NCBI GenBank assembly: GCA_945898185.1
Contig: CAMDHP010000005.1
Coordinates: 1 to 53,615, forward strand
DNA length: 53,615 nt
Direction: 5' to 3'
DNA from: Akkermansia muciniphila
GTDB taxonomy: Bacteria; Verrucomicrobiota; Verrucomicrobiia; Opitutales; Opitutaceae
Made by a program: the position numbers and the translations under genes. The notes beneath the pieces are model-generated. The model was not told where the DNA came from. It saw only the letters and a program-made list of their open reading frames with translations, and searched no databases. Positions within the stretch are counted from its first letter, which is position 1. Every line of letters starts with the position of its first letter. Of the stretch, positions 2,323 to 53,342 are shown one piece after another.

Positions 2323-2780
2323 ACTTCCCCGCCCGCACCCGCGAATCGTTGGTCATTATTCGTAGGCTATTTCAGATTAGCTCCTTTCGATTGCCCGACC
2401 TGCCCGCCCCATCCGCGAAGAACCTTAAGAATCAAACTCCAAACGCTTCATCGCCGCTGGCCTGCACGGGTAGCTGGATGCCCTCTAAGCCGTCCACATC
2501 GCCGCCCAGACCGGCTTCACTAATGGAGACGCCCCGGCCGCCCAGCTCCAGACCCAGAGCTGCGCCAAATCTTTCCCTGTATTTTTTCCCCGAGCAACGC
2601 GAAGTCTCGCCTTTGTGGGATTTCGCCCAGCCCGACCGTCTCGTTCTCGTTTTTACCTTGCATGATACGAACCCAAACTGACGAAAGATAGGGAGAAAGA
2701 AGGGAGAGAAAGAGCGATCGGAATGCTTCCCTCCATCGTAGGCTTGAACGTGAGTTCAAGTTCCGCCCGCCGCCCTGTGG
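2323..2780. other. Gap with a possible degraded coding remnant
   Basis: No intact gene is visible between the exported protein and the OGG-type glycosylase. In the plus frame running from about 2437 to 2652, a protein-like stretch (KRFIAAGLHG, then AVHIAAQTGFTNGDAPAAQLQ) is interrupted by two stop codons, which could be the remains of a gene. A single TTGGTCATTATTCG at 2349-2362 resembles the heptamer repeat that follows at 2781. Confidence 0.3.
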
Positions 2781-2843
2781 TCATTCGTCATTCCTCATTC
2801 CTCATTCCTCATTCGTCATCCGTCATTCGTCATTCCGCATTCG
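2781..2843. repeat. Tandem 7-bp repeat, nine units of TCATTCS
   Basis: Nine consecutive heptamers fill these 63 bases: TCATTCG or TCATTCC, with single-base variants TCATCCG and GCATTCG. The array ends 32 bp before the preferred ATG of the OGG-type gene at 2876. The reading frame of that gene is open back through the array, so if an upstream start were used, gain or loss of one unit would shift the frame. Confidence 0.85.
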
Positions 2844-2875
2844 CCACCCCGCCTCACGCGGCCACCCTTGCCGAT

Positions 2876-3841
2876 ATGTCGCTCCCTTGGCATCCTTGGC
2901 AACCCGTTCCACCGCTCCCTCACGCCGTAGCCTTCACCCCGTCGTCGCTTGGTGAGCTGCTTGATGGCGGCCAAGCCTTCCGCTGGACCGCCTTGCCCGA
3001 ATCCGCCTTCGAGGGCCAATGGTCCGAACACCATGTCCGGGTCCGCCTCGTGCCCAACGCGAGCAGCACCCTGGAGTTTGCCGCCCCGCTCCACGCCGAT
3101 CCCGCAGCCACCGCCGCCGCTCTCCACTTCTACCTGAGCGGACCGCCCGCCGCGCCCGACGCCCTTCCCTGGCGCAGCGATGCCCACCTCGCCGCCGCCA
3201 TGGCCGCCTTCCCCGGCCTGCGCATCCTCCGCCAACCCTTTGGTGAAACTCTCCTCGGGTTCGTTTGCAGCGCCACAAAACAAATCCCCCAAATCAAACA
3301 GATGCAGGCCCTTCTCGCCGCCCGCCACGGCCGCGCCCTCAACCCCGTCCCCTCCGCCCCTCGAGCATCCAACCGTCCTTCCCAAACAACTAGTCAATCA
3401 TTGATTGACAATATTGTTTTTCATCAACTCCCCACCTGGACCGAGCTCGCCGCCGTGTCCGAAAGCGAATTACGCGCCTGCTCGCTCGGTTTCCGCGCCC
3501 GCCACGTCGCCTCCATCGCTCGCTTCCTCGCCGAAAACCCCGGCTGGCTTGAAGCCACCGAGCACGCCCCCTACCCCGAGGCCAAAGCCCGCCTCATCAC
3601 CCTTCAGGGCGTCGGTGAAAAAGTCGCCGACTGCGTGCTCCTCTTTGGCGCCGGCCGCCTCGAGGCCTTTCCCGTGGACACCTGGATTTTAAAAGCCCTT
3701 GCACGCCGCTACGATCTCGCCGGCTGGGAACCCGCCCAAGTCGCCCACTTCGGCCGCACCCATTTCGGCCCCCAAGCCGGCCTCGCCCAACAATACCTCT
3801 TCGCCTACGAGCGCGCCGCCGCGCGCGGCAAACTAACCTAA
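2876..3841 (+). CDS. 8-oxoguanine DNA glycosylase, OGG type (HhH-GPD)
   Basis: Base-excision repair glycosylase/lyase that removes oxidised guanine. The 321-residue protein has an N-terminal OGG domain (SLGELLDGGQAFRW, about residues 22-35), GLRILRQPFGETLLGFVCSA in the middle, and a helix-hairpin-helix LQGVGEKVADCVLLFGAG. The HhH lysine is residue 249 and the catalytic aspartate of EAFPVDTW is residue 268; these numbers and their spacing match human OGG1 Lys249 and Asp268. ATG 2876 is chosen because the family alignment begins just after it. Between the N-terminal part and LPTWTELAAV, the usual short loop is lengthened by about 20 residues, including TSQSLIDNIV (172-181), which is encoded by a hairpin element (see repeat at 3384). 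Confidence 0.88.
   Translation: MSLPWHPWQPVPPLPHAVAFTPSSLGELLDGGQAFRWTALPESAFEGQWSEHHVRVRLVPNASSTLEFAAPLHADPAATAAALHFYLSGPPAAPDALPWRSDAHLAAAMAAFPGLRILRQPFGETLLGFVCSATKQIPQIKQMQALLAARHGRALNPVPSAPRASNRPSQTTSQSLIDNIVFHQLPTWTELAAVSESELRACSLGFRARHVASIARFLAENPGWLEATEHAPYPEAKARLITLQGVGEKVADCVLLFGAGRLEAFPVDTWILKALARRYDLAGWEPAQVAHFGRTHFGPQAGLAQQYLFAYERAAARGKLT
3384..3420 (+). repeat. Hairpin element with core GTCAATCATTGATTGAC, inside the OGG gene
   Basis: The core at 3393-3409 is flanked by imperfect arms, AAACAACTA on the left and AATATTGTTT on the right. It is read in the frame AGT CAA TCA TTG ATT GAC, giving SQSLID at residues 173-178. The other two sense frames contain TGA. The left arm is nearly identical to the left arm of the copy at 22543. 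Confidence 0.85.
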
Positions 3842-4145
3842 ACCGAATCGGATAGATTACACCGCGGGCACGAGCGGAGGCACCGAGCCCACGAAGCCAA
3901 GTTCACGCCCCTACTCTAATTTTCCTTCATCCGTGTTTATCCGTGAGCATTCGCCGTTACATTTGAGCCGTCTCTTTCGCGTATTTCGTGTAGCGCGTGA
4001 TTAAAAAATTCCGTTTCCCCTCTCCCCGCATCTCTTTCCATTCCTTTTCTCAGTGGCCTCCGTGCGCCCTTCGTGCCCTCTGTGTAACTTCTTCTCCGTC
4101 TCCGCCTACTACGCTTCATCTTGCGCCGCCCCGCGCCTCCCTGCC
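3842..4145. other. Intergenic region with degenerate repeats
   Basis: No gene is seen. The stretch holds fragments of families found elsewhere in the window: ATCCGTGTTTATCCGTG near 3930, TTTCGCGTATTTCGTG near 3976, and TTCGTGCCCTCTGTGTAAC near 4070. No clear promoter or terminator could be assigned. The ispG frame is open back to 4053, but the conserved protein starts only after 4146. Confidence 0.5.
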
Positions 4146-6263
4146 ATGCCTCCGCTCCCCTACACTGCATCCCGTTTCCACACCGTCCGCCGCCGCACCC
4201 GCGAGGTCATGGTAGGCCCCGTCGGCGTCGGCGGCACGAATCCCCTTCGCGTCCAGTCCATGACCACCAGCGACACCCAGGACATCGCTGCCACCGTGCG
4301 GCAGGCCATCGCCCTCGCCGAGGTCGGCTGCGAGATCGTCCGCATCACCGCTCCCAACGTCCAAGCCGCCCGCTGCCTCAAGCCCATCCGCGAGCAATTT
4401 GCCGCCGCCGGCTTTGGCCATATACCGATTATCGCCGATATCCATTTCCTGCCCTCCGCAGCCATGGAGGCCGTGGAGCACGTCGAGAAGATCCGGATCA
4501 ACCCGGGCAACTACGCCGACAAAAAGAAATTCGCGGTCACCGAATACACCGACGCCGCCTACAACGCGGAGCTTGCCCGTATCCACGAGGCCGTGACGCC
4601 GCTTATTCTTCGTTGCAAAGCCCTCGGCCGCAGCGTGCGCATCGGCACCAACCACGGCTCGCTCAGCGACCGCATCATGAACCGCTACGGCGACACTCCT
4701 CTCGGCATGGTGGAGAGCGCCCTCGAGTTCCTCCGAATCTGCCGCGGCCATGGATTTAACGATATCATCCTTTCGATGAAGGCCTCCAACCCCAAGGTCA
4801 TGATCCAGGCCTACCGCCTGCTCGTCGCCCGCATGGACCAGGAGCAGATGGACTATCCCCTCCACCTCGGCGTCACCGAGGCCGGCGACGGCGAGGATGG
4901 CCGCATCAAGTCCGCCATCGGCATCGGCTCCCTGCTCGCCGACGGCCTCGGCGATACCATCCGCGTCTCCCTCACCGAAGACAGCGTTTACGAAATCCCA
5001 GTCGCACAAGCCCTGGCCCGCAAAGCCATGGCTCTTTGGCAGCAACCTACCAATCCATTTTGTCAATCAATGATAGACAAAGTGCAGAAAGAGAACGTCG
5101 TTGAGCGCACCGACTCTATTGATCCGTTTGTTTACGCCAAACGTTCCGTTAACTCGCTCACCATCTCCCCTGATTTCGCCATCGGTCCCGAACTCCCTTC
5201 CCGCGTCGTCACCCGCGTCGCGTCCGTTGCCGCGCTTGCCGAGGCCGCTCAGAAGTTCGCCGCCACCCGCCTCACCGATACCCCGGTTGAAGGACTGCTC
5301 GTCCCCATCGACAACGCCGCCGACCTCGCCGCGCTCAAATCCGCAGCCTTCCCTGCCGGTTCGGTTCCCTTTCTCGATCTCGCCGCCGCGCTGACACCCG
5401 CCGACCTCGCCAGCCTAAATAGCAGTGCGCCCGTTGTGCTGGTGCGAACCTTCGGCTCCTCCCACGTCGACGCCGACGCCCTCGCTGGCTTCGCGAAACT
5501 CGCCCGCGCCAGCGGACACACTCTCGCCCTCGCCACCACGGTCGAGGCGCTCTCCGCGCCCGCCTCACCACTCGCCGCCACCCTTCGTCAACTCGGCGAA
5601 GCGTCGCTTCTCATCACCCTCGACGACGCCGTCCCGGACCCCGCCTTCCGCCACGAGATCGGCCGCTATCGCGCCCTCGCCGATGCCCTCGGCGCCCTCG
5701 GTATCCACGCTCCCCTCTGGATCCGCAGCACCCAATCCGTGCATTCGAGACCGGGCATTCGCCATTGGTCATTATCCGGCACGGCGCCCGCGCCGGATTT
5801 CCTCTCCAGACTGCTCGACGCCTCAGTCCTTTCCGGAGCCTTGCTCTGCGACGGCCTCGGAGACCTCGTGAGCATCGAGACCGAACCCGACCCCGTGCGC
5901 GCGCTCAAGCTCACCTACAACGTCCTTCAAGGCGCCGGCACACGCAGCAGCAAGACGGAGTTCGTCGCCTGCCCGAGCTGCGGCCGCACGCTCTTCGACC
6001 TGCAAACCACGACGCAAAGAATCCGCGCCCGCACCGGACATCTCAAGGGCGTGAAAATCGCCATCATGGGTTGTATCGTGAATGGACCCGGAGAGATGGC
6101 CGACGCCGATTTCGGCTACGTCGGCGGCGCCCCAGCAAAAATCAATCTCTACGTCGGCAAACAGTGCGTTCAATACAACCTTCCCCAAGCCGAAGCCGAC
6201 GAGCACCTCGTCGCCCTCATCAAAGCCCACGGCAAATGGGTCGAGCCGCCGGTCGGCGCGTGA
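4146..6263 (+). CDS. ispG: 4-hydroxy-3-methylbut-2-enyl diphosphate synthase, long form
   Basis: Iron-sulfur enzyme of the MEP isoprenoid pathway that converts MEcPP to HMBPP. The TIM-barrel part starts at about residue 10 (TREVMVGPVGVGGTNPLRVQSMTTSDT). The C-terminal cluster domain carries CPSCGRTLFDLQ and GCIVNGPGEMADADFGYVGG, giving the three cluster cysteines. At 705 residues it is the long type with a central insert domain, as known from plants, Chlamydiae and Bacteroidetes, rather than the roughly 370-residue E. coli type. ATG 4146 fits the family start. Two odd segments lie in variable regions: CQSMIDK (residues 306-312), encoded by a hairpin element, and HSRPGIRHWSLSG, encoded by a heptamer-like repeat at 5742. 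Confidence 0.95.
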   Translation: MPPLPYTASRFHTVRRRTREVMVGPVGVGGTNPLRVQSMTTSDTQDIAATVRQAIALAEVGCEIVRITAPNVQAARCLKPIREQFAAAGFGHIPIIADIHFLPSAAMEAVEHVEKIRINPGNYADKKKFAVTEYTDAAYNAELARIHEAVTPLILRCKALGRSVRIGTNHGSLSDRIMNRYGDTPLGMVESALEFLRICRGHGFNDIILSMKASNPKVMIQAYRLLVARMDQEQMDYPLHLGVTEAGDGEDGRIKSAIGIGSLLADGLGDTIRVSLTEDSVYEIPVAQALARKAMALWQQPTNPFCQSMIDKVQKENVVERTDSIDPFVYAKRSVNSLTISPDFAIGPELPSRVVTRVASVAALAEAAQKFAATRLTDTPVEGLLVPIDNAADLAALKSAAFPAGSVPFLDLAAALTPADLASLNSSAPVVLVRTFGSSHVDADALAGFAKLARASGHTLALATTVEALSAPASPLAATLRQLGEASLLITLDDAVPDPAFRHEIGRYRALADALGALGIHAPLWIRSTQSVHSRPGIRHWSLSGTAPAPDFLSRLLDASVLSGALLCDGLGDLVSIETEPDPVRALKLTYNVLQGAGTRSSKTEFVACPSCGRTLFDLQTTTQRIRARTGHLKGVKIAIMGCIVNGPGEMADADFGYVGGAPAKINLYVGKQCVQYNLPQAEADEHLVALIKAHGKWVEPPVGA
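5055..5085 (-). repeat. Hairpin element inside ispG
   Basis: The sense-strand core GTCAATCAATGATAGAC at 5062-5078 is identical to the sense core in the epimerase gene at 52539-52555. Read on the other strand it fits GTC-TATCATTGATT-GAC. The arms are short and imperfect (CCATTTT against AAAGTGC). It encodes CQSMIDK in the linker between the barrel and the insert domain. Confidence 0.8.
5742..5776 (+). repeat. Degenerate heptamer repeat inside ispG
   Basis: Five consecutive 7-base units, CATTCGA GACCGGG CATTCGC CATTGGT CATTATC, resemble the TCATTCS array at 2781 and the fragment at 2349. The 35 bases are in frame and encode HSRPGIRHWSLS within the insert domain of IspG. Confidence 0.5.
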
Positions 6264-20941: not shown

Positions 20942-21039
20942 AAAAGTGCATCGAAGTGGGTGAGCGAACGAGCAGATGCCCGGTAGATTGTATCAGATCG
21001 CGGCGTCCAACTCAGGAGTTCGGACTAATCGGTTAAAGC
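20942..21039. repeat. 98-bp dispersed repeat, copy A
   Basis: Nearly identical to copy B at 28762-28851: both contain AGTGCATCGA, GGTGAGCGAACGAG, ATGCCC, GTAGATTG and CGCGGCGTCCAACTCA. Both copies sit at the 3' end of a minus-strand gene in the same orientation. Here the repeat overlaps the end of the PEP-CTERM gene and supplies its last residues and stop. Confidence 0.85.
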
Positions 21040-22542: not shown

Positions 22543-22583
22543 CCAAGGCAACTAGTCAATCATTGATTGACTAGTTGCCTTGG
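22543..22583. repeat. Perfect 41-bp palindrome, intergenic copy of the hairpin element
   Basis: Arms of 15 bp, CCAAGGCAACTAGTC and GACTAGTTGCCTTGG, flank the 11-base centre AATCATTGATT, whose five outer bases also pair. A further TGCCTTGG at 22523-22530 can pair with the same left arm, so two mutually exclusive hairpins are possible in the leader of the HTH gene. The core is shared with copies at 3384, 5055 and 52529. Confidence 0.9.
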
Positions 22584-28761: not shown

Positions 28762-28851
28762 AAAAGTGCATCGAGGTGGGTGAGCGAACGAGTGAATGCC
28801 CAGTAGATTGCATCAAATCGCGGCGTCCAACTCATGAGTTCGCGGGTTAAG
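28762..28851. repeat. Dispersed repeat, copy B
   Basis: Matches copy A at 20942 over its whole length, with about 10 substitutions and a 9-base indel near one end. Here it ends at the stop codon of prmA (TAA at 28847-28849, minus strand), so the repeat starts within a few bases of the gene end. Confidence 0.85.
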
Positions 28852-36906: not shown

Positions 36907-37237
36907 CGGATACGCGGCGGCGGTTACTCGGCGTGCATAAAAAAGTCCGTGGAGCACTTCAGTTCCAGGTCGTTGCTCCCTTTGCGTCTTTGCGTTAATA
37001 AAGTCTCTTTTGCCCGGAAGGTTGGTGTCGTTCGCTCTGAGAATTTATGTAGCGGGGAGCGCCATGCGACCCGTGCTTAAAGTCCAACCGCACAGCGCCC
37101 CCTCCGGAACAGGGACATCAAAGTCTCTCGTCGCGGTTTTCGGATTAAATTCGCCTCGAACCCCGATCTTTTGAACGTGGAACAACAATCTGTGCGTGTC
37201 CCGCGCCGATTTTTCTCTCTACTCTGCGACTTTTCCC
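36907..37237. other. Intergenic region between ftsK and mdh with repeat pieces
   Basis: No gene seen in 331 bp. It holds TTTGCGTCTTTGCGTTAA near 36981, a relic of the GAAGACGCGAAGG hairpin family, and a copy of the AGCGGGGAGCGCC repeat at 37050-37073. No clear terminator for ftsK was found. Confidence 0.5.
37050..37073. repeat. AGCGGGGAGCGCCATGCGACCCGT repeat, copy 1
   Basis: AGCGGGGAGCGCC followed by ATGCGACCCGT. The same 23-24 bases recur at 38283 (identical) and 39394 (two changes: AGGCGACTCGT). Copies 1 and 2 flank mdh; copy 3 lies past the next gene. Confidence 0.85.
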
Positions 37238-51552: not shown

Positions 51553-52089
51553 TGCCCGCATTACTTTTGCCGGCGGCTTCAAGAGGCCTGCCCGCACCAA
51601 AAGCATCCGGTAGGGCGCGAGCAGCAGCACGGCCATAAAGAGCTTCACCGCGAGGTCGCCAGTCGCGAGTGCAAGCCAGTTCAAATGCTCGCCCGCAAAA
51701 GCCAGAGAGAAGAATATCGCGGTATCAAGCACCGAGGCGGCAATCGAGCCGATGAAAGGTGCCTTCCACCAGACCTTTTGTCGCAGTTTATTGAATACAG
51801 CAATGTCCATGAACTGCGAAGCGAGAAATGCTGCCGCCGAGGCGAGCGCGATCCGCGGCGGCGCCAGCATCAAGGAAAGCGCGAGGCCGGTGACGAATCC
51901 GACCCACGCCATCTGGCGCGCACGTGCGACGCCAGCCCGGCGATTGGCGACATCGGTCACAAAGTAGGCGACCGGGTAGGTGAATGCGCCCCAGGTCAGC
52001 CACGTGTTCAGTGGAAACTGCACGAGGTAATTCGAGAGCGCGACGATGCCCGCCATGGCGAGCGCGGAGAGCAGGAAGGAACGGTTCAT
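51535..52089 (-). CDS. VUT-family queuosine precursor transporter (YhhQ-like)
   Basis: Inner-membrane transporter of about six helices, 184 residues. NRSFLLSALAMAGIVALSNYLVQFPLNTWLTWGAFTYPVAYFVTDVANRRAG at 2-53 contains the family core of the vitamin-uptake (VUT) group, and QFMDIAVFNKLRQKVWWKAPFIGSIAASVLDTAIFFSLAF near 92-130 carries the conserved charged and aromatic residues. By family it brings in queuosine precursors. It overlaps the upstream epimerase gene by four bases and is probably cotranscribed with it. Confidence 0.9.
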   Translation of the reverse strand: MNRSFLLSALAMAGIVALSNYLVQFPLNTWLTWGAFTYPVAYFVTDVANRRAGVARARQMAWVGFVTGLALSLMLAPPRIALASAAAFLASQFMDIAVFNKLRQKVWWKAPFIGSIAASVLDTAIFFSLAFAGEHLNWLALATGDLAVKLFMAVLLLAPYRMLLVRAGLLKPPAKVMRASAMKG

Positions 52090-53342
52090 GGGCGTGGCTT
52101 GGCGGCGGAGCGCGACTTCAGGGCGGCGATAAGTTCCGCGGTCCCGGTAGCCATGCTGATGCGCGGCACGTAGCCCAGATCGCGCTGGGCGGCGGTGATG
52201 TTGAACCAGTGATCCTTGGCGAGCTCGGCGGCGATGAAGCGCGTCATGGGCGGCTCATCGGCACGGCGGAGGATTGCCCAAGTCGCTTCGCAGACGGCGC
52301 CGAGCGCGCAGGCGGCGCCAGAGGGCACGCGGAAGGACGGAAGTGGCGGGCGATCGAGCGCGCGCAAGAGATCATCAATCCATTGCCAGAGGCTGATGGG
52401 TTCACCGTTGGTGATGAAGTAGGCGCGACCAGCGGCGGGGCCGGCAGCTTGATCTGCACCGCCACCAACAGCTTGTTCGGCAGCCCCACTTGTAGCCCCA
52501 CTTGTAGCCCCACCTGCAGCCGAACCAACCAAGCTCTTGTCTATCATTGATTGACAAGAGCTTGGGGCGACAATTTCCGAAGAAGTGTCCATCGTGGATA
52601 GACTGGTTGTATTGATGGATGAGGGCAGGAGGGGCAGAAGAGCCTGTTCGGCGAGGAGGTGGGCGTCGGCGGCGTTTTCGACGTGGACCATATCCACCAG
52701 ATTTTGCCCCCCGCCAACGATACGCAGGCGGCCGGCAGCGGCACGCGCGAGGATGCGCGGCACCAGATGCGGATCGCCGACGCCCCAGATAAGATGCGGG
52801 CGCAGCGCGCATGTGGCGAAGCCTGGGACGTTGGCAGCAAGCACCTCCCGCTCGGCGAGTGCCTTCGTGAGCGGATACGGACTAGGGCACGAGGCCGTGA
52901 GCGGCAGCGATTCATCGGCGCCCGAAAGCGGCAGGCCGTTGTAAACCACGCTCGGAGTGCTGGTGTAAACAAAGCGCCTCACGCCAGCGGCACGGGCAGC
53001 AGCAAGAAGGGTGCGGGTAGCGGCGACGTTATCCTGAAAAAAATCAGTGTATCGCCCCCACACACCCACGCGGGCGGCGACGTGAAAAACCGTTTCAACG
53101 CCACGCACCGCCTCGGCGCAGGTGGCGGGGTCAGCGAGCGAGCCGACGACGATGCGCAAGCCCCGCGCGGCTAGGGCGGGTTGGGGCGTGCGGGACACAA
53201 CGGTCACGGTTCGGCCAGCGGCCAGCAAACGAGTAAGGATATGGCCGCCAAGGAATCCGGTAGCGCCGGTGACCAAAGCCGGGCCTCGATCACTGGTGTG
53301 CCGAGCCGCGGAGTCGGAGGCTGCCTTCAGGATTTGGTTCAT
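52086..53342 (-). CDS. NAD-dependent epimerase/3-beta-HSD-like protein with repeat insert
   Basis: 418-residue extended SDR. GPALVTGATGFLGGHILTRLLAAGRTVT near 21 is the NAD-binding motif. YTSTPSVVYNG and SPYPLTKALAERE near 130-160 carry the Tyr-x3-Lys pair. DMVHVENAADAHLLAEQALLPLL near 213 is normally followed closely by GRAYFITNGEPISLW. Here about 65 residues are inserted between them, including CQSMIDK (from a hairpin element) and an Ala/Gly/Ser/Thr-rich run from a 12-bp tandem repeat. The rest of the fold is complete. Probably a sterol- or sugar-modifying SDR. Confidence 0.88.
   Translation of the reverse strand: MNQILKAASDSAARHTSDRGPALVTGATGFLGGHILTRLLAAGRTVTVVSRTPQPALAARGLRIVVGSLADPATCAEAVRGVETVFHVAARVGVWGRYTDFFQDNVAATRTLLAAARAAGVRRFVYTSTPSVVYNGLPLSGADESLPLTASCPSPYPLTKALAEREVLAANVPGFATCALRPHLIWGVGDPHLVPRILARAAAGRLRIVGGGQNLVDMVHVENAADAHLLAEQALLPLLPSSINTTSLSTMDTSSEIVAPSSCQSMIDKSLVGSAAGGATSGATSGAAEQAVGGGADQAAGPAAGRAYFITNGEPISLWQWIDDLLRALDRPPLPSFRVPSGAACALGAVCEATWAILRRADEPPMTRFIAAELAKDHWFNITAAQRDLGYVPRISMATGTAELIAALKSRSAAKPRP
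52481..52516. repeat. 12-bp tandem repeat inside the epimerase gene
   Basis: Three units, CAGCCCCACTTG, TAGCCCCACTTG and TAGCCCCACCTG, are read on the minus strand as AGGATSGATSGA-type peptide. They lie 13 bp from the hairpin element at 52529 and within the same protein insert. Confidence 0.85.
52529..52565 (+). repeat. Hairpin element inside the epimerase gene
   Basis: Perfect 13-bp arms CCAAGCTCTTGTC and GACAAGAGCTTGG enclose the 11-base loop TATCATTGATT. On the gene strand the core GTCAATCAATGATAGAC is identical to the ispG copy and is read as CQSMIDK. The other two sense frames contain a stop codon. Confidence 0.9.

Follow-up and report, generated by a model that had tools for sequence, protein, structure and literature searches.

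Introduction

A palindromic repeat inside a protein-coding gene need not abolish the product: in Rickettsia, the insert-bearing gmk protein is made and is active. Rickettsia palindromic elements (RPEs; Ogata, Claverie), which have Wolbachia counterparts (WPEs), lie in frame inside genes and measure 105–146 bp (reviewed in PMC2229807), while the shorter RPE-4 and RPE-6 end in CGTC (PMC3733652). Among the genomes examined by Di Nocera et al. in 2013, Opitutus terrae carries the most intragenic repetitive extragenic palindromes (REPs) of the GTAG type, for which permissive linkers have been proposed as sites (PMC3733652), and for palindromes in the mitochondrial DNA of Nematomorpha template switching has been suggested (PMC6649704). 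Here, we describe a hairpin inside the gene for an OGG-type 8-oxoguanine DNA glycosylase, in a 53,615-nt stretch of Opitutaceae DNA deposited as Akkermansia muciniphila (contig CAMDHP010000005.1, positions 1–53,615; hereafter, the window). In our assessment, this hairpin is very probably a single copy of a small palindromic element that spread, as an interspersed repeat, in one Opitutaceae genus and is translated as a loop peptide.

Like RPEs and WPEs, the element comprises palindromic repeats that stand in frame in genes for conserved proteins, that also occur in intergenic DNA, and that are, judging from the sequence, translated and tolerated. It differs from RPEs in its size (~27–45 nt, with a 17-nt core), in arms that differ between copies, in being untagged, and in belonging to another phylum; neither the 105–146 bp length nor the CGTC end of RPE-4/6 was found, with CGTC at no fixed place. 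It shares with the O. terrae GTAG REPs the bacterial family, the short palindromes in open reading frames (ORFs), and the several families per genome, but has no GTAG (or GTGG/CGTC) tag, is an odd palindrome with a one-base center, and has no copy-flanked transposase that we could find. The Nematomorpha palindromes are likewise translated inverted repeats with maintained pairing; however, they encode conserved residues, can be as long as 284 bp, and are not described there as members of an interspersed family (PMC6649704).

The kind of element is thus already known from RPEs and intragenic REPs, and what is new is an untagged version with a core that differs between sister lineages; we found no description of its first, second, or third core in the open-licence papers searched. 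Translated palindromic repeats are thereby extended to untagged hairpins in Verrucomicrobiota, where one genus provides a replicated natural test through its 15 genomes, its three or more interchangeable cores, and protein loops that are filled in some members and empty in others. The spread of elements inside genes, by fresh insertion or by in-place conversion of cores, becomes testable, for instance in strain IMCC26134, and the element marks insertion-tolerant loops of OGG, IspG, MnmA, HemF, and NnrD.

Results and Discussion

The Hairpin Copy in the OGG Gene

The OGG gene occupies positions 2876–3841 of the forward strand, where the longest ORF spans 2723–3841 and the start at 2876 is taken from homology. 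Solved OGG structures match the gene product at ~1e-25, and its HhH-GPD and OGG_N Pfam scores lie under the curated cut-offs. The element is housed in a length-hypervariable protein loop (3335–3427, forward strand; ALNPVPSAPRASNRPSQTTSQSLIDNIVFHQ), as a hairpin at 3384–3419 with its core at 3393–3409. This core, GTCAATCATTGATTGAC, is a 17-nt odd palindrome of perfect 8-bp arms around one central base, preceded by CTA and followed by AAT, with outer arms that pair in part. The RNA fold of this copy pairs 3384–3419 at –9.4 kcal/mol (z –3.3), and Rfam gave no matches in window positions 3300–3500.

A sequence-only reading of the window had placed a hairpin element, translated in frame inside the glycosylase, at 3392–3418. 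The translated part agrees with our analysis, in which 3389–3418 (ACT AGT CAA TCA TTG ATT GAC AAT ATT GTT) encodes TSQSLIDNIV in the OGG reading frame, whereas the hairpin itself extends further, over 3384–3419. As that reading also held, the remaining two sense frames are stopped by TGA, and the catalytic Lys and Asp are unaffected, with the GVGEK...PVD motif intact downstream of the element. In our analysis, the antisense strand shows the same pattern of frames.

Its picture of the surrounding loop fared less evenly. The loop is indeed short in several OGG homologues, but some members of the genus (G111, G116, and G118) fill it with unrelated sequence, partly GTCATTCG-type tandem repeats. 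The expectation that species without the element would be missing exactly these residues did not hold: in G106, the nearest relative with a complete OGG loop (...RHGRPLPDGSHALPTW), the loop is ~23 aa shorter than in the window, and the element accounts for ~10–12 of the extra residues rather than for all of them. Because the loop is hypervariable, no exact excision or empty site can be defined at OGG. Finally, TSQSLIDNIV occurs in no homologue examined (a homologue was present in 46 of 57 genomes, and 30 loci were aligned), such that the same peptide encoded by unrelated DNA, which had been named as the observation that would speak against the claim, was not encountered.

These loops also host a translated small repeat of a different kind. 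At 2781–2850, directly before the OGG start, stands a GTCATTCGTCATTC-type short tandem repeat; repeats of this type occur in other genomes within OGG loops (L041, L051) and hemF loops (L114, L116, L117, L119), where they are translated as GHSSLVIGHSS or LRHSDL.

An Interspersed Family of Hairpins

The OGG hairpin belongs to a family with many in-gene copies across the genome, a point absent from the sequence-only reading. Allowing up to three mismatches to the first core (the GTCAATCATTGATTGAC family), we found four sites in the window against 0.06 expected by chance, and 18 copies with family-like arms in the window's own genome (G000, a 2.26-Mb draft) against none for a reversed control pattern; the repeat thus stands at many unrelated loci, as RPE-type coding elements do. 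Beyond the OGG copy, the window holds one at 5056–5084 (core 5062–5078) inside ispG (ORF 4053–6263, forward strand), an intergenic one at 22543–22583 that forms a perfect 41-nt palindrome with inner arms CTA...TAG, and one at 52529–52565 inside a gene for an NAD-dependent epimerase/3beta-HSD (52086–53342, reverse strand), the copies in ispG and in the epimerase gene both being translated as CQSMIDK. In the G113 orthologue of this last gene, which in the window carries the 52539 copy, two in-frame copies lie 48 nt apart (L035:1501 and 1549).

Among 252 genomes of the family, the core at no more than one mismatch is found in four, all from one genus: IMCC26134 (G106; complete, CP011265.1), the pond metagenome-assembled genomes (MAGs) D1_MAG_00083 (G110) and E1_MAG_00038 (G113), and the window's genome. 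When 84,980 species genomes were compared, more than one exact core was present only in IMCC26134 (CP011265) and two Opitutaceae MAGs, JAIXVY and JAIYBI; the remaining exact matches are isolated, in line with expectation for a 17-mer. G110 has the most copies, with 27 exact cores and variable arms. The copies in IMCC26134 are decayed while those in G110 are mostly exact, as activity of the element at different times would predict. A phage source was also considered and was rejected, with nothing beyond chance matches.

Each copy consists of the core and self-complementary arms, with pairing that extends ~12–14 nt past the core. The arms vary between copies (for example, aaggcaacta/tagttgcctt, cgatccatc/gatggatcg, and caagctctt/aagagcttg), yet the two arms of one copy are complementary to each other: 53% of cells are paired compared to 38% in shuffles (z 8.2), rising in non-coding copies to 69% compared to 43% shuffled. 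This pairing may come from the spreading mechanism, or from template-switch correction of quasi-palindromes, as proposed for another case (PMC6649704).

Host Genes, Reading Frame, and Translation

Of the 18 genome copies, 14 lie inside long ORFs with coding composition. The hosts are ordinary conserved enzymes, whose short gene names are our reading of the Pfam matches: OGG, IspG, and the epimerase in the window, and elsewhere one ORF without an assigned family (L012), a MurG-like glycosyltransferase, CrtC, an OppC-like permease, DUF3516, SOUL, a DEAD-box helicase, an HI0933-like flavoprotein, coproporphyrinogen oxidase, NnrD, and MnmA. As with RPEs, these are in-frame insertions in conserved protein genes that are absent from homologues; at mnmA, crtC, and the HI0933-like gene, members of the genus that lack the element have short loops that hardly vary in length.

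The frame was assessed from stop-free GC3–GC2 periodicity, with the element and the adjoining 12 nt at either end left out and the upstream and downstream flanks scored apart. Each flank alone places the core in phase 1, its sole stop-free frame, in 28 of 32 testable copies (binomial P 3e-10 under 1/3, a value that is approximate as some copies are orthologous between genomes). Since the core is a palindrome, genes on both strands read xQSLID or xQSMID.

The bases next to the core provide a further indication of translation. Intergenic copies are typically CTA-core-TAG, and TAG follows the core in 9 of 21 non-coding copies; in coding copies, CTA precedes the core in 24 of 55 cases and TAG follows it in none of the 55. 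In the coding orientation, a TAG after the core is an in-frame stop, and thus this asymmetry is predicted by translation and is required by neither splicing nor bypass. To the extent that sequence can tell, this says that in-gene copies are read as codons rather than bypassed.

Other Cores in Sister Lineages

Sister lineages carry other cores of the same design, all three being 17-nt odd palindromes that start with GT and end with AC. The second, GTAACC-N5-GGTTAC, has tens of copies in G109, G119, and G112, which, where the flanks are coding, mostly read xN[PLQ][IFL]GY, with some copies open in another frame. The third, GTCACC-N5-GGTGAC (fam3), has 54 matches in G114, 37 in G115, and 0–5 in other genomes. 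Seven palindromes of this third type occur within ~640 bp at G114:C30:2097-2731, several of them 44 nt apart, in a cluster that resembles a bacterial interspersed mosaic element (BIME). Similar 17-nt GT...AC palindromes with paired arms are seen in other genera of the family, G032 and G012 (L049:3506-3522 and L054:1485-1501; GTCACGTATTACGTGAC and GTCACGAATTACGTGAC), and may represent further families.

At the inter-domain linker of nnrD (L161, L162, L165, L166, L327–L335), the three cores stand at the same codon across sister species, three residues past a conserved [DE]LGF and with the linker length unaltered: the first core in G000 and G113, the second in G109, G117, and G119, and, in G108, a core of the third type whose last base differs. 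The exceptions are G110, where the core is offset by two residues, G114 and G115, with two third-type cores further along, and G106, where the core is decayed. The linker is either a recurrent landing site or one where resident cores were converted. It is rather unlikely, in our estimation, that copies were overwritten as well as inserted, with a resident core replaced by the lineage's active core through conversion or template switching; we know of no description of such core turnover in RPE or REP families. In a five-gene tree, G110, with its many copies of the first core, falls beside G114 and G115 and not with G000, G113, and G106, such that simple inheritance within one clade does not account for the first core. 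Its distribution may reflect transfer or parallel spread.

Proposed Origin and Alternative Explanations

Taking these observations into account, we propose that copies would land in intergenic DNA and in permissive protein loops, linkers, or termini, and that the in-gene insertions to survive would be those with a stop-free frame, zero net frameshift, and no TAG in the downstream arm. The element would then be translated as a loop peptide of 10–15 residues, such as TSQSLIDNIV; most likely, it is carried as a selfish or neutral passenger and does not serve as a functional peptide. Mobility, a hairpin intermediate, and this lack of function are what we infer; observed directly are the repeat family, its frame and avoidance of stops, the pairing of the arms, presence or absence among related species, and lineage differences in the core.

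Several observations weigh against this proposal. There is no linked transposase, as the core stands beside none of 20 Y1 genes (~1.5 kb flanks each), and Y1_Tnp, found by Pfam in 14 of the 15 genus genomes, has no match in the most copy-rich one, G110 (79% complete). No target-site duplication, as in miniature inverted-repeat transposable elements (MITEs), is definable, with flanking loops that vary in length and no clean empty site. The nnrD linker has the length found in several outgroup species without the element, and thus at nnrD the hairpin replaced sequence. Codon changes within the element, at 10 synonymous to 18 non-synonymous compared to 7:35 if neutral, leave room for weak selection on the peptide, being too few to decide.

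The transposase results bear equally on a REP of the GTAG type, mobilized by a REP-associated tyrosine transposase (RAYT) and happening to lie in genes. This is a possible, if unlikely, origin: Y1_Tnp genes are widespread in the genus and the palindromes are short and some are clustered, as with the third core in G114, but no GTAG or CGTC tag has a fixed place beside 71 copies of the first core (at any one position, GTAG occurs in at most 2 of 71 and GTGG in at most 7 of 71), none of the 20 Y1 genes is flanked by copies, and the genome with the most copies is the one without a Y1 match. That the core is instead a functional DNA site, bound by a regulator or by a nucleoid or chromosome-segregation protein and merely overlapping genes, appears quite improbable. 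The strictly conserved core and variable arms of G110 would suit such a site; however, the core differs among sister lineages and is missing from most of the genus, IMCC26134 copies decay, and the arms covary as a hairpin, which a 17-bp site does not need. We rejected a functional binding site on the lineage-specific cores and the decay.

The remaining alternatives concern the protein. A motif XQS[LM]IDX, selected and spread for its usefulness to proteins, could explain why unrelated proteins encoded on both strands share a hexapeptide, but either strand of the palindrome yields this hexapeptide automatically, intergenic copies occur, mutated forms (QSTSD, QSMLE, LSMID, and others) are found, and other lineages have different peptides at the same nnrD site, making this explanation very improbable. 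Even less credible is a hairpin absent from the protein, through byp-like translational bypass or through splicing. Hairpin inserts in conserved genes do recall the Magnusiomyces mitochondrial elements (mentioned in PMC6649704), but the reading frame continues across the element and the avoidance of TAG is confined to the coding side downstream of the core, neither of which a bypassed segment would call for; Rfam, searched over 3300–3500, gave no match.

Other Repeats in the Window

Direct repeats of 81 nt, 90% identical and unrelated to the hairpin, lie at 20942–21022 and 28762–28842, and a small repeat, AGCGGGGAGCGCCATGCGACCCGT, is present in three copies, at 37051, 38283, and 39394.
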